64,000 nucleotides of DNA, taken from contig JAJTFH010000014.1 of assembly GCA_021298395.1 (NCBI GenBank), positions 1-64,000 of the forward strand. Reading direction: 5' to 3'. Positions 16,178 through 22,260 of the stretch are shown here, piece by piece (positions within the stretch are counted from its first letter, which is position 1; every line of letters begins with the position of its first letter). Below the pieces are notes generated by a model, which saw only the letters and a list, made by a program, of their open reading frames with translations, was not told the DNA's origin and ran no database searches. The translations under genes and the position numbers were made by a program. The stretch comes from Gemmatimonadota bacterium. Lineage in GTDB: Bacteria > Gemmatimonadota > Gemmatimonadetes > Gemmatimonadales > Gemmatimonadaceae.

Positions 16178-16849
16178 ATGAGGCGGGGACGATTGATGGC
16201 GCTGGTGACGCTCATGATGCTCCTCGCGAGCGTCCCGCTGCCTGCACAGGAAGGTAGGAGTGCGGCCACCCTCTGGAAAGCGGCGATCGCCGCGGTGGAT
16301 TCAGGACAGTTCGCGACGCCCGAGCGACAGACGCGCCTCTACGCCGATGCGGCGCGCTGGGCCGATTCCGCGGCGCGGCTGGCGCCCCGCGACCCCGACG
16401 CGCGGGTGGTGAAGGCGATCGCGGCGGGCCGCAAGGCGCTCTCCCTTGGTCCGCGCGACCGCGTGCAATACGCCGTCCTCGTCCGGAACGAGGTCCTCGC
16501 TGCGCTCGCGATCGCCCCGGACCACGCCGGCGCGCACCATGTGCTCGGGATGTGGCACGCCGAGATCCTCCGACTCAACCCCGTGGCGCGCTTCGCGGCC
16601 AAGACGCTCCTCGGCGCCTCCGTCTTCGGCGAGGCCGATTGGGAGAAGGCCCAGCGTGCCCTCGAGCGGGCCGTGGCGATCGAGCCCGATCGCATCACGC
16701 ATCGGCTCGATCTCGCCAGCATCCTCGCCGACCGCGGCAATGTCGCCGGCGCCCGTACGCAGTATGAATGGATCGCCCGGGCGACCGCGCGCGAATACAA
16801 CGACAGGACCTATCAGCGGCTCGCCGCCGATCGACTCCGCGGGCTGTGA
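16178..16849 (+). CDS. Exported tetratricopeptide-repeat protein
   Basis: A 223-residue protein with a signal peptide (RRGRLMALVTLMMLLASVPLPAQ) and helical repeats. Recognisable TPR-like units include ADAARWADSAARLAPRDPDAR, AALAIAPDHAGAHHVLGMWH and AQRALERAVAIEPDRITHRL. The layout resembles regulator-of-microtubule-dynamics-type TPR proteins, which bacteria carry as periplasmic proteins of unknown role. AGGAG at 16164-16168 decides the ATG at 16178. The stop overlaps the GTG start of ligA. It is divergent from the phosphorylase. A periplasmic protein-binding role is inferred. Confidence 0.7.
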   Translation: MRRGRLMALVTLMMLLASVPLPAQEGRSAATLWKAAIAAVDSGQFATPERQTRLYADAARWADSAARLAPRDPDARVVKAIAAGRKALSLGPRDRVQYAVLVRNEVLAALAIAPDHAGAHHVLGMWHAEILRLNPVARFAAKTLLGASVFGEADWEKAQRALERAVAIEPDRITHRLDLASILADRGNVAGARTQYEWIARATAREYNDRTYQRLAADRLRGL

Positions 16850-18873
16850 GCGCGGCCGAGACCCCGACGACCCGCGCCAGCCTCCTCCGCCGCCGTCTCG
16901 AGGAGGCGGCGCATGCCTACTACGTGCTCGATCGCCCGTCGCTCAGCGATGCGGCGTACGACCAGCTCTTCCGCGAGCTCCAGGCGCTGGAGCGCGATCA
17001 CCCGGAGCTCGCCGACGCCGACTCCCCCACCCAGCGCGTGGGCGCCGCCGTCACCGAGAGCCATCTCGCGAAGCACACGCATCTGGTGCCGATGGGGTCG
17101 CTCGACAATGCCTTCGATGAGGCCGAGCTCGCCGAGTGGGAGGGCCGGCTCCGCAAGCTGACCGGCGGCGCGGTCGATACCGCCGGCTACTGCTGCGAGC
17201 TCAAGATCGATGGCGCCGCGATCTCGCTGACCTACCGTGACGGCGTGCTGGTCACGGCCGCCACGCGTGGGAACGGGAGCGTGGGCGAGGATGTCACCGC
17301 CAACGTGCGCACGATCCCCGACATCCCGCGCCATCTCGCCGGCGACGGGTGGCCCCCGCTGATCGAACTCCGCGGCGAGGTCTACATGACCTTCGAGGGG
17401 TTCGAGCGGATGAACGCCGAGCGGGTGCGCGCTGGGGAGGCGGTCTTCGCGAATCCGCGGAACTCCGCTGCGGGGGCGCTCCGCCAGAAGGATCCGCGCG
17501 AGACGGCCAAGCGTCCGCTCCGCTTCTTCGGCTACGCCTTCGCCGTGCCGGGGGCGGCACCCCTCCCCTTCCAGTCACAGTGGGAGCTGCTCGAGACCCT
17601 CGTCACCTGGGGGATCCCCGTCGCGCCGGCGCGGCGCCACTGCCCCTCGCTCGAGGCGGTGCACACCTGGGCGCGCGAGCTGGAGCGTGAGATTCGCCCC
17701 ACCCTCCCCTTCGCGATCGACGGCGGCGTGGTCAAGGTGAATACGCTGACGTTGCAGACCGAGCTGGGCGTGATCGGCGGTCGGGTGCCGCGGTGGGCGA
17801 CCGCACGCAAGTTCGCCCCCGACCTCGCCGAGACACAGCTCCTCGACATCGAGGTCCAGGTGGGACGCACCGGGGCGCTCACCCCGCGCGCCGTGCTCGC
17901 CCCGGTCGAGGTCGGCGGCGCCACGATCACCTACGCGACGCTCCACAACTTCGATCTCATCGCCGAGAAGGACCTCCGCATCGGTGATGTGGTGCAGGTG
18001 AAGCGCGCCGGCGAGGTGATCCCGCAGGTGATCGGCCCCGTCCCCGAGCGGCGCACCGGCACGGAGCGCGCGGTGCGGGCGCCGCATCGCTGCCCGATCT
18101 GCGAGACCGCCGTCGTGCGCGACGAGGAGGAGGTCGCGATCTGCTGCCCGAACGTCGCCTGCCCCGGCCGGCGGCTCGAGGCGCTCGCGCACTTCACCTC
18201 GCGCGACGGGATGGATATCCGGGGGCTGAGCTATCAGCGGCTCGAGCAGTTGATCGCGGCAGGACTCGTCTCCGATGTCGCCGATCTCTACACCCTCACC
18301 CCCGAGCAGGTGGGCGCGCTCGAGCGCTTCGCCGATCGCAGCGCCGAGCAACTCGTCGCCGCGATCGCAGCCTCCAAGACGCAACCGCTCTCGCGCCTGC
18401 TGCATGCGCTCGGGATCCGCCATGTGGGGGCGGAGTCGGCGAAGCTCCTCGCCCGCACCTTCGGCACGATGGACGCGCTCACCCACGCCTCGGTCGAGGC
18501 GCTCGAGGCGCCGCACGGCGTGGGGGGGACGATGGCGGAGGCGGTGCATGCCTGGGGGCATGACCCGGCGATCCGTGCCCTCCTCGCGAAGCTCACGCGC
18601 GCCGGCGTGCGCATGGATGAACCACAGGCCGCCGTGGCCGACGGGCCGTTCAAGGGACTCAAGGTCGTGCTCACCGGGACCCTCCCCACCCTCGCTCGCG
18701 GTGCGGCGACGGCGCTGATCGAAGGGGCCGGTGGGAAGGTCACCAGCGCCGTCTCCAAGGCGACCGATCTTCTCGTCGCCGGCGAGGAGGCAGGGAGCAA
18801 GCTGGAGAAGGCGACCACCCTTGGGATCCCGGTGATCGACGAAGCGGAACTCTTGCGCCGCCTCGGCCGCTGA
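16846..18873 (+). CDS. ligA: NAD-dependent DNA ligase LigA
   Basis: A 675-residue ligase that seals nicks using NAD. The adenylated lysine is Lys120 in ELKIDGAAISLTYRDG. Domains follow in the usual order: the Ia and adenylation domains, OB-fold, a Cys4 zinc finger (CPICETAV then ICCPNVACPG), a helix-hairpin-helix region near residues 500-570 and a BRCT domain (FKGLKVVLTGTLPTLARG onward). The GTG start at 16846 overlaps the preceding stop by three bases (GTGA) and puts residue numbering in line with the family. Essential replication and repair gene. Confidence 0.96.
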   Translation: MSAAETPTTRASLLRRRLEEAAHAYYVLDRPSLSDAAYDQLFRELQALERDHPELADADSPTQRVGAAVTESHLAKHTHLVPMGSLDNAFDEAELAEWEGRLRKLTGGAVDTAGYCCELKIDGAAISLTYRDGVLVTAATRGNGSVGEDVTANVRTIPDIPRHLAGDGWPPLIELRGEVYMTFEGFERMNAERVRAGEAVFANPRNSAAGALRQKDPRETAKRPLRFFGYAFAVPGAAPLPFQSQWELLETLVTWGIPVAPARRHCPSLEAVHTWARELEREIRPTLPFAIDGGVVKVNTLTLQTELGVIGGRVPRWATARKFAPDLAETQLLDIEVQVGRTGALTPRAVLAPVEVGGATITYATLHNFDLIAEKDLRIGDVVQVKRAGEVIPQVIGPVPERRTGTERAVRAPHRCPICETAVVRDEEEVAICCPNVACPGRRLEALAHFTSRDGMDIRGLSYQRLEQLIAAGLVSDVADLYTLTPEQVGALERFADRSAEQLVAAIAASKTQPLSRLLHALGIRHVGAESAKLLARTFGTMDALTHASVEALEAPHGVGGTMAEAVHAWGHDPAIRALLAKLTRAGVRMDEPQAAVADGPFKGLKVVLTGTLPTLARGAATALIEGAGGKVTSAVSKATDLLVAGEEAGSKLEKATTLGIPVIDEAELLRRLGR

Positions 18874-18893
18874 CCGTTCCTTCCTGCGCGCCG

Positions 18894-19451
18894 ATGCCCT
18901 CCTCCTCGCCCGATCCCCTCGCCCTGACCTCGGTCCCGCACACCTCGCTGCGCGCCCTGCGCTCCGCGTTGGTGCGGGACCTCGGTGACGGGTTCGCGAG
19001 TGTCCTCCAAGAGGCCGGATTCGCCGGGGGGGCCTCGGTCCTCGACGCCTTCGCTGCGTGGTGCGGCCGGCATGGGCTCGCGGCGCCGGCGACCCTGCCG
19101 ATCGAGACCTTCCATGCCGCACTCGCGCGCTTCCTCGCCGAAGCGGGGTGGGGCCAGATCACGGTCACTTCGCTGGGCGATGCGGTCCTTGCGATCGACT
19201 CGGCGGATTGGGCCGAGGCAGACCCCGACGCCCCCATGCCCTACCCCTCGTGCTACTACACGGCCGGGATGTTCGCCGACCTGCTGGGCCGCGTCGCCGA
19301 CGCCCCGGTGGGGTGCATGGAAGTCAGCTGTCGGTCGAGCGGGGCGACCGACTGCCGATTCCTCGTGGGGAACCCCGAGGTCATGGCCCATGTGTACCAG
19401 CGGATCACCGAGGGCGTCGGGTACGAGGACGCGCTGGACGAGCTCGCCTGA
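18894..19451 (+). CDS. V4R-domain protein (4-vinyl-reductase-like sensor domain)
   Basis: A 185-residue protein whose C-terminal half is a V4R domain: CYYTAGMFADLLGRV, then CMEVSCRSSGATDCRFLVG. Four cysteines (120, 141, 146, 154) fit the metal or ligand-binding pattern of V4R domains, found in BchJ, XylR-type sensors and archaeal regulators that bind small hydrocarbons or tetrapyrroles. There is no DNA-binding or ATPase domain attached. The N-terminal 110 residues are helical and not recognised. It stands ahead of a TPR gene and a ParA gene on the same strand, 20 bases after ligA. A role as a ligand-sensing or assembly partner of those proteins is inference. Confidence 0.7.
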   Translation: MPSSSPDPLALTSVPHTSLRALRSALVRDLGDGFASVLQEAGFAGGASVLDAFAAWCGRHGLAAPATLPIETFHAALARFLAEAGWGQITVTSLGDAVLAIDSADWAEADPDAPMPYPSCYYTAGMFADLLGRVADAPVGCMEVSCRSSGATDCRFLVGNPEVMAHVYQRITEGVGYEDALDELA

Positions 19452-19530
19452 GGGGTCTCGATACCCCCTCGATGCGGTTGCTGGCCCCTCGCCGTTCGGA
19501 TAGCTTGAGCCGGACCCCTCTCGACACGCT

Positions 19531-19986
19531 ATGGCATTCTGGGACCGCCTCTTCGGCGGCCGTTCTGAGTCCACGTTCGCCCGGCAGCGCCTCGACTATC
19601 TGAACGAGGCGCTGGTGTTGGAGCGTCAGGGGGATTTCGACGCGGCGGTGACGAGCTATCGCCTGGCCCTGCGGGAGCACCCGACCGATCTCCGCATCCT
19701 CCAGAACATGGCGATCGCGCTCACCAAGGTGGGGCGCGTGGAGGAGGCGATCCGCGCCTACCGTCGGGCGATCGAGGTCGATGCGACGGCGAGTGGGGCG
19801 CACTATGGGTTGGCCTTCCTGCTGATCAAGCGCGGGGATGCCGCCGGGGCCGCGTCGCATCTGGAGGCGTTCCTCACCCATCCCCCGAGCGCGGACGATG
19901 CCGACCGCTGGATCGCGCATGCCCGGGCGACGCTCGATCAGCTCCATGGCGCGAGCGGTGGAGCGGGTGAGCCGGCCCGGAGCTGA
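19531..19986 (+). CDS. TPR-repeat protein (151 aa)
   Basis: A 151-residue cytoplasmic protein made of about three TPR units: LDYLNEALVLERQGDFDAAV, LRILQNMAIALTKVGRVEEA and GAHYGLAFLLIKRGDAAGAA. The N-terminus MAFWDRLFGGRSE could be a short amphipathic or membrane-touching helix. It ends one base before the ParA ATG and is probably translated with it. TPR proteins hold partner proteins together, so a link between the V4R protein and ParA is plausible but not shown. Confidence 0.75.
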   Translation: MAFWDRLFGGRSESTFARQRLDYLNEALVLERQGDFDAAVTSYRLALREHPTDLRILQNMAIALTKVGRVEEAIRAYRRAIEVDATASGAHYGLAFLLIKRGDAAGAASHLEAFLTHPPSADDADRWIAHARATLDQLHGASGGAGEPARS

Positions 19987-19987
19987 G

Positions 19988-20758
19988 ATGGGCACCACCA
20001 TCGCGATCGTGAGTCAGAAGGGGGGTGTCGGCAAGACCACGACCGCGGTCAACCTCGCCGCCGCCTTCGCGCGCCGTGGCCTCCGCACCCTCCTCGTCGA
20101 CACCGACCCGCAGGGCTCGGTGCGCTTCGGGGTGGGCCTTCGGCAGGGCCATCCGCAATACGGCTTCGCCGATTACCTCATGGGGCTGCGCGGGCTCCGC
20201 GAGATCCTCCTCCCCACCACCCTCCCCTGGCTGCGGGTGATGCTCGCCGGGAGCGTGACCGAGGCGGCCGATCATACGGCGTATCAGGAGGGGATCGCCT
20301 CCTCCGACCTCCTGGCGCGCATGCTGGACGAGGCGAGCGAGCGGTGCGACATCGTCCTCCTCGACACCCCGCCGGGGCTCGGCCCCGTCACGCGCGCCGC
20401 CCTCACCTGCGCCGACCGCGTCATCGTCCCGCTCCAGGCGGAGCCCCTCGCGCTCCAGACCACCCCGCAGATCCTGCGCGGGATCCAGGACATCGTGACG
20501 CAGCACGAGCGGCTCGTCTTCGACGGGATCCTGCTGACGATGTATGAGGCGGGGAACCCCGCCTGTGAGACGACGGCGAACTACATCCGGCAGAAGGTCC
20601 CCGCGCATCTCATGATGGATCTCGTGATCCCACGGAGCCCGGCGGTCGCCGAGTCGTTCGCGACAGGCCAACCGGTGGTGGTGCGCACGCCGGCCGATCC
20701 CGCCTCGCAGGCGTACGTGAACCTCGCGACGCGCCTGGCCGAACGGTTGGGGTACTGA
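19988..20758 (+). CDS. Orphan ParA/MinD-like ATPase
   Basis: A 256-residue ParA-family ATPase with the deviant Walker A KGGVGKTTTAVNLAAAF (from residue 11), switch region VDTDPQGSVRFG and Walker B VLLDTPPGLGPVT. Such ATPases bind DNA or membrane in the ATP state and position plasmids, chromosomes or protein clusters. No ParB gene or parS-like repeat is near, and no N-terminal DNA-binding extension is present, so it is an orphan. The ATG at 19988 follows the TPR stop; a longer upstream reading overlaps that gene and is rejected. The stop overlaps the next ATG (TGATG). Confidence 0.85.
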   Translation: MGTTIAIVSQKGGVGKTTTAVNLAAAFARRGLRTLLVDTDPQGSVRFGVGLRQGHPQYGFADYLMGLRGLREILLPTTLPWLRVMLAGSVTEAADHTAYQEGIASSDLLARMLDEASERCDIVLLDTPPGLGPVTRAALTCADRVIVPLQAEPLALQTTPQILRGIQDIVTQHERLVFDGILLTMYEAGNPACETTANYIRQKVPAHLMMDLVIPRSPAVAESFATGQPVVVRTPADPASQAYVNLATRLAERLGY

Positions 20759-21564
20759 TGGGGTCGCACGGACCAGGGGGCCGACGCGCCACGGGCCGTC
20801 AGAGCGCCGTGCTCCTCACCCTCGCGCTCCTGCTTGGGTGTGACACCCCGGTGGGCTCGGAGGGGGAGCTCAATGCGATCGAATTCTCCGGCATCCCCTT
20901 CCCCGCCGTGATCATCGGCGACACCCTCCGGGACTCGCTCGGGGTCGCCGCGCCATTGCAGGCGACGGCCTACGACGGGCGTGGTGCCGTGATCCCCGGC
21001 GCCGACGTCCGTTTCCTCTCGCCGGATACCGGCGTCACGATCGGCGCGACGGGATTCCTCACCACGACCCGCGCGAGCGGCGTGATCCGCGTCTTCGCCT
21101 CGCTCGGCGCGTTGCAGAGTGCGCGGCGGACGATCGTCGTGACACCCCGCCCTGATACCGTGAGTGCGACGGGCACCTCGCGCCTCACCCTCGACTACGT
21201 GCTCCCCGATGGCGCCGCGAATCTGACCGGTGACATCGGCGTCTCGGTTCGCCACCTGCCTGGCCCGACCTCGACTCCGGCGAACGTGACGGGGTGGCCG
21301 GTGCGTTGGCGTCTCGTCTACCGAGGCGACACGTTGTCGCCGAGCGATACGACGCTCGCCGTGCTCCAGAGCAGCGCCGGCCGTCGGGGGGTCGTCGACA
21401 CCACCTCGACCAGTGGGACCTCCATCCGACGACTTCGGGTCTTCTCGAATCGGCTCCCGGTGGCGACCGACAGCTTCCAGGTGGTCGCTGAGGTGAGGCG
21501 ACATGGCCGTCCGGTGGCGGGGAGTCCGGTCCGCTTCTGGGTCCGCATCGCCCCGAAGAGCTGA
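20758..21564 (+). CDS. Putative lipoprotein with Ig-like repeats
   Basis: A 268-residue protein with a lipoprotein signal: a basic start, a hydrophobic stretch VLLTLALLLGC and a lipobox with Cys28. The mature part is rich in Ser, Thr, Asp and Val, with beta-strand segments such as LQATAYDGRGAVIPGADVRF and WRLVYRGDTLSPSDTTLAV that look like bacterial Ig-like (Big) domains. The ATG overlaps the ParA stop, so it appears to belong to the V4R-TPR-ParA transcript, which is an odd partner for a cytoplasmic ATPase. It converges on the next minus-strand gene. No specific family is recognised. Confidence 0.7.
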   Translation: MGSHGPGGRRATGRQSAVLLTLALLLGCDTPVGSEGELNAIEFSGIPFPAVIIGDTLRDSLGVAAPLQATAYDGRGAVIPGADVRFLSPDTGVTIGATGFLTTTRASGVIRVFASLGALQSARRTIVVTPRPDTVSATGTSRLTLDYVLPDGAANLTGDIGVSVRHLPGPTSTPANVTGWPVRWRLVYRGDTLSPSDTTLAVLQSSAGRRGVVDTTSTSGTSIRRLRVFSNRLPVATDSFQVVAEVRRHGRPVAGSPVRFWVRIAPKS

Positions 21565-21600
21565 TCCCACCGCACCCGCGGAGGGTCAGCCTGACCTCAC

Positions 21601-22260
21601 TCAGCTCGGGGAGGCGCGCTGGAGCGGGATCACGGTGGGCGTGGCGACACGCGCCCCCACCCACTCGACCGCATCGGCCGCGAGAAGGGAGATCGTCGCC
21701 GGGCGAGCGCAGGCGATGGGCGCCACGAGCCGTCCACCGACGCGCACCGCGCGGACCGCGGCCTCGATCAGTCGCGGCTCATCGAGTGCGGCGGCCCGGA
21801 AGGTCCCCTCGGTGAAGGGCACCGCATCGGCCCAGCCGATGACGCGCGCGGCGGAGGTGAAGAGGGCATCGTCGGGATCCGCGACGATCACCATCAGGTC
21901 GAGCCGAGCCTGGAGGCCGGCGGCGTAGGCCGCGTAGCGACCGCCGAGGAGTACCGCGCCACCGGATTCAGCGAGGCCGAGGAGGGCCTGCAGGCGATCG
22001 AGGGCCTCGAGCGTAGGCGATGGGGCCGGCGTCGCTTCACTCCCATCGCGTTTGGATCCCTCGTTGGAGGATGCCGGCACAGCGCCGTCGGTGTCGCACC
22101 AGAGATCCCCCTCACGGAACCGCGCCTCGCGTCCACACTGCATGCACCCCGCCGTCCCGCGGCGCAGGTCACGGTCGATCACCTCCGACGCGACGACCAC
22201 GAGGGGAGTCGGCCGGTGATCCGCGGGACATTGGAGTCGTTCGGCGAGTTCGAGGCGCAT
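21601..22260 (-). CDS. Trm112-like zinc domain plus degenerate methyltransferase-like domain
   Basis: A 219-residue protein. The N-terminus LELAERLQCPADHRPTPLVV and AGCMQCGREARFREGDLWC resembles the Trm112-type zinc domain seen at the start of many bacterial SAM-dependent methyltransferases. After an acidic linker, the rest (LLGGRYAAYAAGLQARLDLMVIVADPDDA and AVRAVRVGGRLVAPIAC) follows the beta-alpha order of a class I methyltransferase, but the glycine motif I is poorly kept. It lies 52 bases downstream of the SDR gene on the same strand, possibly the last gene of the pterin operon. Function is unknown. Confidence 0.6.
   Translation of the reverse strand: MRLELAERLQCPADHRPTPLVVVASEVIDRDLRRGTAGCMQCGREARFREGDLWCDTDGAVPASSNEGSKRDGSEATPAPSPTLEALDRLQALLGLAESGGAVLLGGRYAAYAAGLQARLDLMVIVADPDDALFTSAARVIGWADAVPFTEGTFRAAALDEPRLIEAAVRAVRVGGRLVAPIACARPATISLLAADAVEWVGARVATPTVIPLQRASPS

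Follow-up and report, generated by a model that had tools for sequence, protein, structure and literature searches.

Among the described systems close to the locus reported here are McdA-McdB, PomZ-PomX and PpfA-TlpT, in which the ATPase is encoded away from parAB and next to a constant partner. The partners PomX, TlpT and McdB carry positively charged N-termini on varied interaction domains (PMC7993993). Conserved arginines reportedly serve DNA binding in PomZ and PpfA, and MipZ binds DNA without the conserved ParA DNA-contact residues (PMC7229837). According to a published report, Min, MipZ, PomZ, MapZ and SsgAB are absent from Gemmatimonadota genomes, a cultured species of the phylum divides at 1/2, 1/3 or 1/4 of cell length, and ParA-like proteins encoded outside parAB have been proposed as division-site candidates for further study (PMC11271474).

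The locus lies in the window, a 64,000-nucleotide stretch of a 97-kb contig from a streamlined 1.8 Mb Gemmatimonadota genome (assembly 1.82 Mb, completeness rated 100%). An earlier note on this DNA had grouped four same-strand genes with tight or overlapping ends, encoding a V4R-domain protein, a TPR protein, a ParA without ParB and an Ig-like lipoprotein (Table 1), and had proposed for them an undescribed positioning or signalling system responding to a small molecule. We found the reading frames, domains and plus strand to be as described, with the Ig-like match falling below threshold; the inclusion of the V4R gene did not withstand comparison with relatives. Only 1 bp separates TPR from ParA, and ParA and the lipoprotein overlap by 1 base in the window and usually by 4 bp in relatives. 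A promoter and terminator scan detected none. The ligase gene upstream probably has its true start at 16846.

Table 1. Features of the locus, in window coordinates
Feature	Position	Strand	Matches and remarks
NAD-dependent DNA ligase, ligA	16768-18873	+	Pfam DNA_ligase_aden 288 bits; 20 bp upstream of V4R
V4R-domain protein	18894-19451	+	PF02830 41.2 bits, cut-off 31
TPR protein, 151 aa	19531-19986	+	Pfam TPR matches
Orphan ParA-like ATPase, 256 aa	19988-20758	+	AAA_31 124 bits
Lipoprotein	20758-21564	+	lipobox LALLLGC; Big_1 (Ig-like) 25 bits, below Pfam cut-off

For comparison, we surveyed 149 genomes of the class and 99 of the window's own family (f1, probably Gemmatimonadaceae), 73 of the latter being of good quality; the sister family without this ParA is referred to as f2. 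Neighbourhoods were read by gene calling at about 80 loci with a simple codon-usage caller, so that neighbourhood counts are approximate, while adjacency counts come from protein searches. The V4R-TPR and TPR-ParA gaps of the family survey run between alignment ends, not gene ends.

By the usual definition, the window ParA is an orphan. AAA_31 matches at three places in the genome: this protein, a parA on contig C41 and, over a short stretch, contig C25. The only ParB_N match of the genome lies on C41 just after parA, and C41 also carries two parS-like sites, each with 2 mismatches (about 0.01 expected). No parS-like site was found in the window with up to 3 mismatches. The ParA of the window thus has no ParB nearby, in line with the earlier note. 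The best solved-structure matches are M. xanthus ParA (PDB 8RAY, 120 bits) and T. thermophilus Soj (1WCV, 112 bits), and the ATPase core, including the signature lysine, is common to the window protein and chromosomal ParA/Soj. Unlike the ParA of ParABS, it is encoded in an operon with a TPR protein and a lipoprotein, with ParB and parS not nearby. The Pfam MipZ profile matches it only secondarily (42 bits against 124 for AAA_31), and the best 5000 plasmid matches are all below 60% identity, the top ones at 33-36%, which tells little about a plasmid origin.

Orthologues of this ParA were found in 93 of the 99 family genomes and in 72 of the 73 good-quality ones, at 51-84% identity; none was found outside the family, the class matches listed being only 31-38% identical. 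Its company is constant as regards the TPR gene: of 92 family genomes, 90 have it on the same strand and at most 190 bp away, and two have the genes on different contigs. In three genomes (G008, G066, G144) the pair stays together while away from V4R. The sole good-quality exception, G133, carries both genes in broken-frame pieces (locus L088, 2434-3575) in an otherwise complete genome, which reflects either joint decay or sequencing error. Between the window and its LaPlata relative (L036), dN/dS is about 0.10 for TPR and 0.15 for ParA, values which indicate that both genes are under purifying selection. In a mirror-tree analysis, TPR and ParA gave no co-evolution signal once the species tree was allowed for (partial r -0.22); for TPR-V4R and for ParA-lipoprotein the partial r was 0.42, which may reflect rate effects in a few genera. 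A chance set of unrelated genes is rejected for TPR, ParA and lipoprotein.

The wider distribution suggests how this operon was assembled. The TPR gene is present in 138 of the 149 class genomes, a spread which indicates that it is old within the class, and in most lineages read its neighbours are folE/queD-like, SDR and methyltransferase-like genes to one side and acyl-CoA synthetase (PF00501) and CutA-like genes to the other. Loci L192, L210, L211, L179 and L188 illustrate this class-wide block, in the order folE/queD-like, SDR, methyltransferase-like, TPR, (OsmC-like), acyl-CoA synthetase, CutA-like. In f2, the lipoprotein gene sits between TPR and the acyl-CoA synthetase; in f1, ParA is additionally present between TPR and lipoprotein. 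Read as history, this order indicates that the TPR-(lipoprotein)-acyl-CoA synthetase operon predates ParA, and the simplest reading would be that ParA was gained in the f1 ancestor, loss elsewhere being less parsimonious. The acyl-CoA synthetase, found 3′ of the lipoprotein in most relatives, is missing from the window, and the best remaining match in the genome reaches only 33-35% identity. Because it has been lost here while the other three genes stay, we regard it as a dispensable neighbour.

Next we compared the residues of 30 orphan ParAs with those of 21 chromosomal ones, which came mostly from the same genomes, with the M. xanthus ParA residue map as reference (PMC12462528; structure 8RAY). 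The ATPase motifs are intact: the deviant Walker A KGGxGKT with its signature lysine and the switch and Walker B aspartates are found in all 30 orphans, and Lys31, Lys36, Asp58, Asp60 and Asp145 are invariant both in these and in the chromosomal proteins. Elsewhere the orphans differ from the ParA of ParABS, with substitutions at Asn64, at Tyr81, at the basic residues that contact DNA and in most of the ParB pocket. The catalytic Asn64 is Ser or Ala in 30/30. Among the positions tested for the ParB pocket and R13 site (V116, L150, L152, L155, L187, L192, Y81, E82, D110, E117), no orphan keeps Tyr81, Leu152, Leu155 or D110, each being replaced or aligned with a gap, and Leu155, which is L/I/V in chromosomal ParAs, is always Arg or His; all orphans retain L150 and are acidic at position 82, and position 117 is acidic in 28/30. 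At the DNA-contact positions, R209 is replaced, R238 is Ala and K247 is replaced in all 30 (by Gln in 29). All 21 chromosomal ParAs, by comparison, keep N64, Y81, D110, E117, L150, L152, R209, R238 and K247. Eight conserved Arg/Lys positions are new in the orphans (window R29, R30, R46, R71, R83, R164, R233 and the column of A137), and the seven arginines among these are family-specific residues on a ParA that has no canonical DNA-contact residues. A C-terminal membrane-targeting helix as in MinD was not found, the orphans stopping a few residues past the last aligned ParA helix; the TPR protein has an amphipathic helix instead.

In a FastTree phylogeny the orphans group together on one long stem (support 0.75, branch 1.16), a topology indicating that they are a distinct, family-specific clade. 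The residues and the low dN/dS together describe an ATPase that is being maintained but is not expected to act with ParB by the known route. The loss of the DNA-contact residues, which sets the protein apart from PomZ and PpfA with their reported use of conserved DNA-binding arginines, could mean that the nucleoid is not used as a track. DNA binding through other residues is possible by analogy with MipZ, in which the ParA DNA-contact residues are likewise not conserved (PMC7229837).

Where McdA-McdB, PomZ-PomX and PpfA-TlpT have their own partner proteins, the candidate partner here is a TPR protein. Its AF2 model (pLDDT 85) has a separate low-confidence helix at residues 2-8, followed by seven TPR-type helices, and a fold search returned generic TPR matches only. 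The N-terminal short helix reads MAFWDRLFGG in the window and MSFWDRLFGG, MSWWSRLLGG or MSLWNKIFGG in others, and the motif is present in 28 of 29 family and 13 of 13 f2 orthologues. The helix has an amphipathic character and a hydrophobic moment close to that of the MinD tail, but since 2% of the 10-mers of the window proteins reach these values, amphipathicity by itself is a weak indication. The N-terminus is also mildly positive, with a mean net charge of +1.6 in f1, somewhat as in McdB, PomX and TlpT (PMC7993993), and of +2.2 in f2. As it is equally conserved in the ParA-less f2, it did not evolve for ParA, and as the charge is positive there as well, the N-terminus, if used by ParA, was pre-existing.

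We put at about even the chance that the locus is an operon built around an orphan ParA/MinD-type ATPase, a membrane-held TPR partner and a lipoprotein with an envelope role, with V4R standing outside it. Under this proposal, the N-terminal amphipathic helix would hold the TPR protein at the inner membrane, where it would replace ParB as the partner of a ParA that alternates between ATP-bound dimer and monomer. The TPR protein would then either activate the ParA ATPase or tie ParA to an envelope cargo, and the co-expressed lipoprotein may serve in the envelope. Gene order points to no particular cargo. A chemotaxis array was considered as cargo and rejected, no MCP domain being found in the window genome. 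T2SSE (type II/IV secretion ATPases) is present in that genome, which makes a pilus or secretion cargo possible. Given the reported absence of Min, MipZ, PomZ and MapZ and the suggestion of ParA-like candidates, a role in division is a reasonable guess, and in its specific form, with the pair as the family's division-site (or pole) positioning system in place of the missing Min/MipZ/PomZ and ParA tethered to the membrane via TPR, we hold it to be quite unlikely.

On the reading that follows from the earlier note, V4R would be a small-molecule sensor controlling positioning by TPR and ParA; in its favour, the genes of the window are on the same strand and tightly spaced. The V4R model (moderate confidence, 71) has the V4R/TRAPP/XylR-N fold, with matches to MopR, DmpR, PoxR, Bet3 and MJ1460 (E about 6e-4 to 3e-2), so that the fold is common to the aromatic sensors MopR/DmpR/PoxR, and the rate correlation with TPR given above, weak and possibly a rate effect in few genera, points the same way. 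Against this, among the 86 family genomes having both genes, only two have a V4R-TPR gap below 100 bp, the window (82 bp between alignment ends, 79 bp between reading frames) and G201 (73 bp); most other gaps are about 570-1000 bp, and in several genomes the genes lie 4 to 34 kb apart or on separate contigs or strands. Where genes were read, TPR is flanked towards V4R by an opposite-strand phosphoribosyltransferase gene (PF00156), called at 26 family and 17 sister-family loci, and the tight spacing in the window is explained by the loss of this gene. Eight family genomes have ParA with no V4R detected, and V4R is found class-wide without this ParA. In related genomes, V4R does not keep company with the other genes, whereas TPR, ParA and lipoprotein do; this largely refutes a V4R-gated system, which we now judge very improbable. 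We conclude from gene order that gene loss gave rise to the apparent set of four genes and that V4R lies outside the TPR-ParA-lipoprotein unit; of the small-molecule positioning or signalling system first imagined, the ParA-based part is still a possibility and the V4R response is not supported. Both losses, of the phosphoribosyltransferase and of the acyl-CoA synthetase, are clean in the window (19451-19531 and 21564-21601) and recur in the near relative L036; the short gap of G201 probably arose independently.

V4R keeps other company. It occurs once per genome in 102 of the 149 class genomes, nearly always directly 3′ of ligA in f1 and f2 and upstream of ruvX-mltG-thiE in other lineages, with ligA-V4R-ruvX-mltG-thiE in series in some lineages (f5, f8). 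With ligA and ruvX as its class-wide partners, its function is best sought there. BchJ, MsvR, the MopR/DmpR/PoxR sensor domains and TRAPP Bet3 share the PF02830 match and fold; the window protein scores far under the equivalog cut-offs of BchJ (30 vs 74 bits) and MsvR (29 vs 220 bits) and, unlike the known V4R-domain proteins, stands alone and is linked to ligA/ruvX. Across the class it is a stand-alone gene beside ligA or ruvX-mltG-thiE (16846-19451 in the window), and three cysteines, C120, C146 and C154, are conserved in 71-78 of 80 sequences.

Three other readings were weighed. ParA may have been inserted into the old TPR-acyl-CoA synthetase operon and hitchhike on its promoter, with partner and cargo encoded elsewhere, as the adjacency of TPR and acyl-CoA synthetase across the class without this ParA, the missing co-evolution signal and a TPR N-terminus identical in kind with and without ParA would suggest; we see this as a serious minority possibility, although the pair has stayed adjacent through relocations and the loss of both flanking genes. 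Alternatively, the ATPase could position nothing and act together with TPR, lipoprotein and acyl-CoA synthetase to regulate or assemble an enzyme complex of the envelope or for lipids. The downstream acyl-CoA synthetase of most relatives, the absence of canonical DNA-contact residues and the ParA-lipoprotein correlation (again possibly a rate effect) are consistent with this, but the window genome lost the synthetase yet kept ParA, and the signature lysine of the ParA/MinD deviant Walker A is intact, which leaves this role unlikely. That ParA is a functionless remnant of a plasmid or chromosomal parA would fit its missing ParB-interface residues, and is scarcely credible for a protein with intact ATPase motifs in every orphan compared, a low dN/dS and near-universal presence in the family.

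Taken together, these results describe one of the candidates called for in the division-site question, an orphan ParA that nearly every genome of one family carries, always with TPR as its neighbour, and that is set apart from chromosomal ParA by its residue signature. With this protein at hand, the question of how the division site is found becomes testable in a cultured relative. Furthermore, as an ATPase of the ParA type in which the usual residues for DNA contact and ParB are missing, it could help to learn what the ParA cycle can do without.
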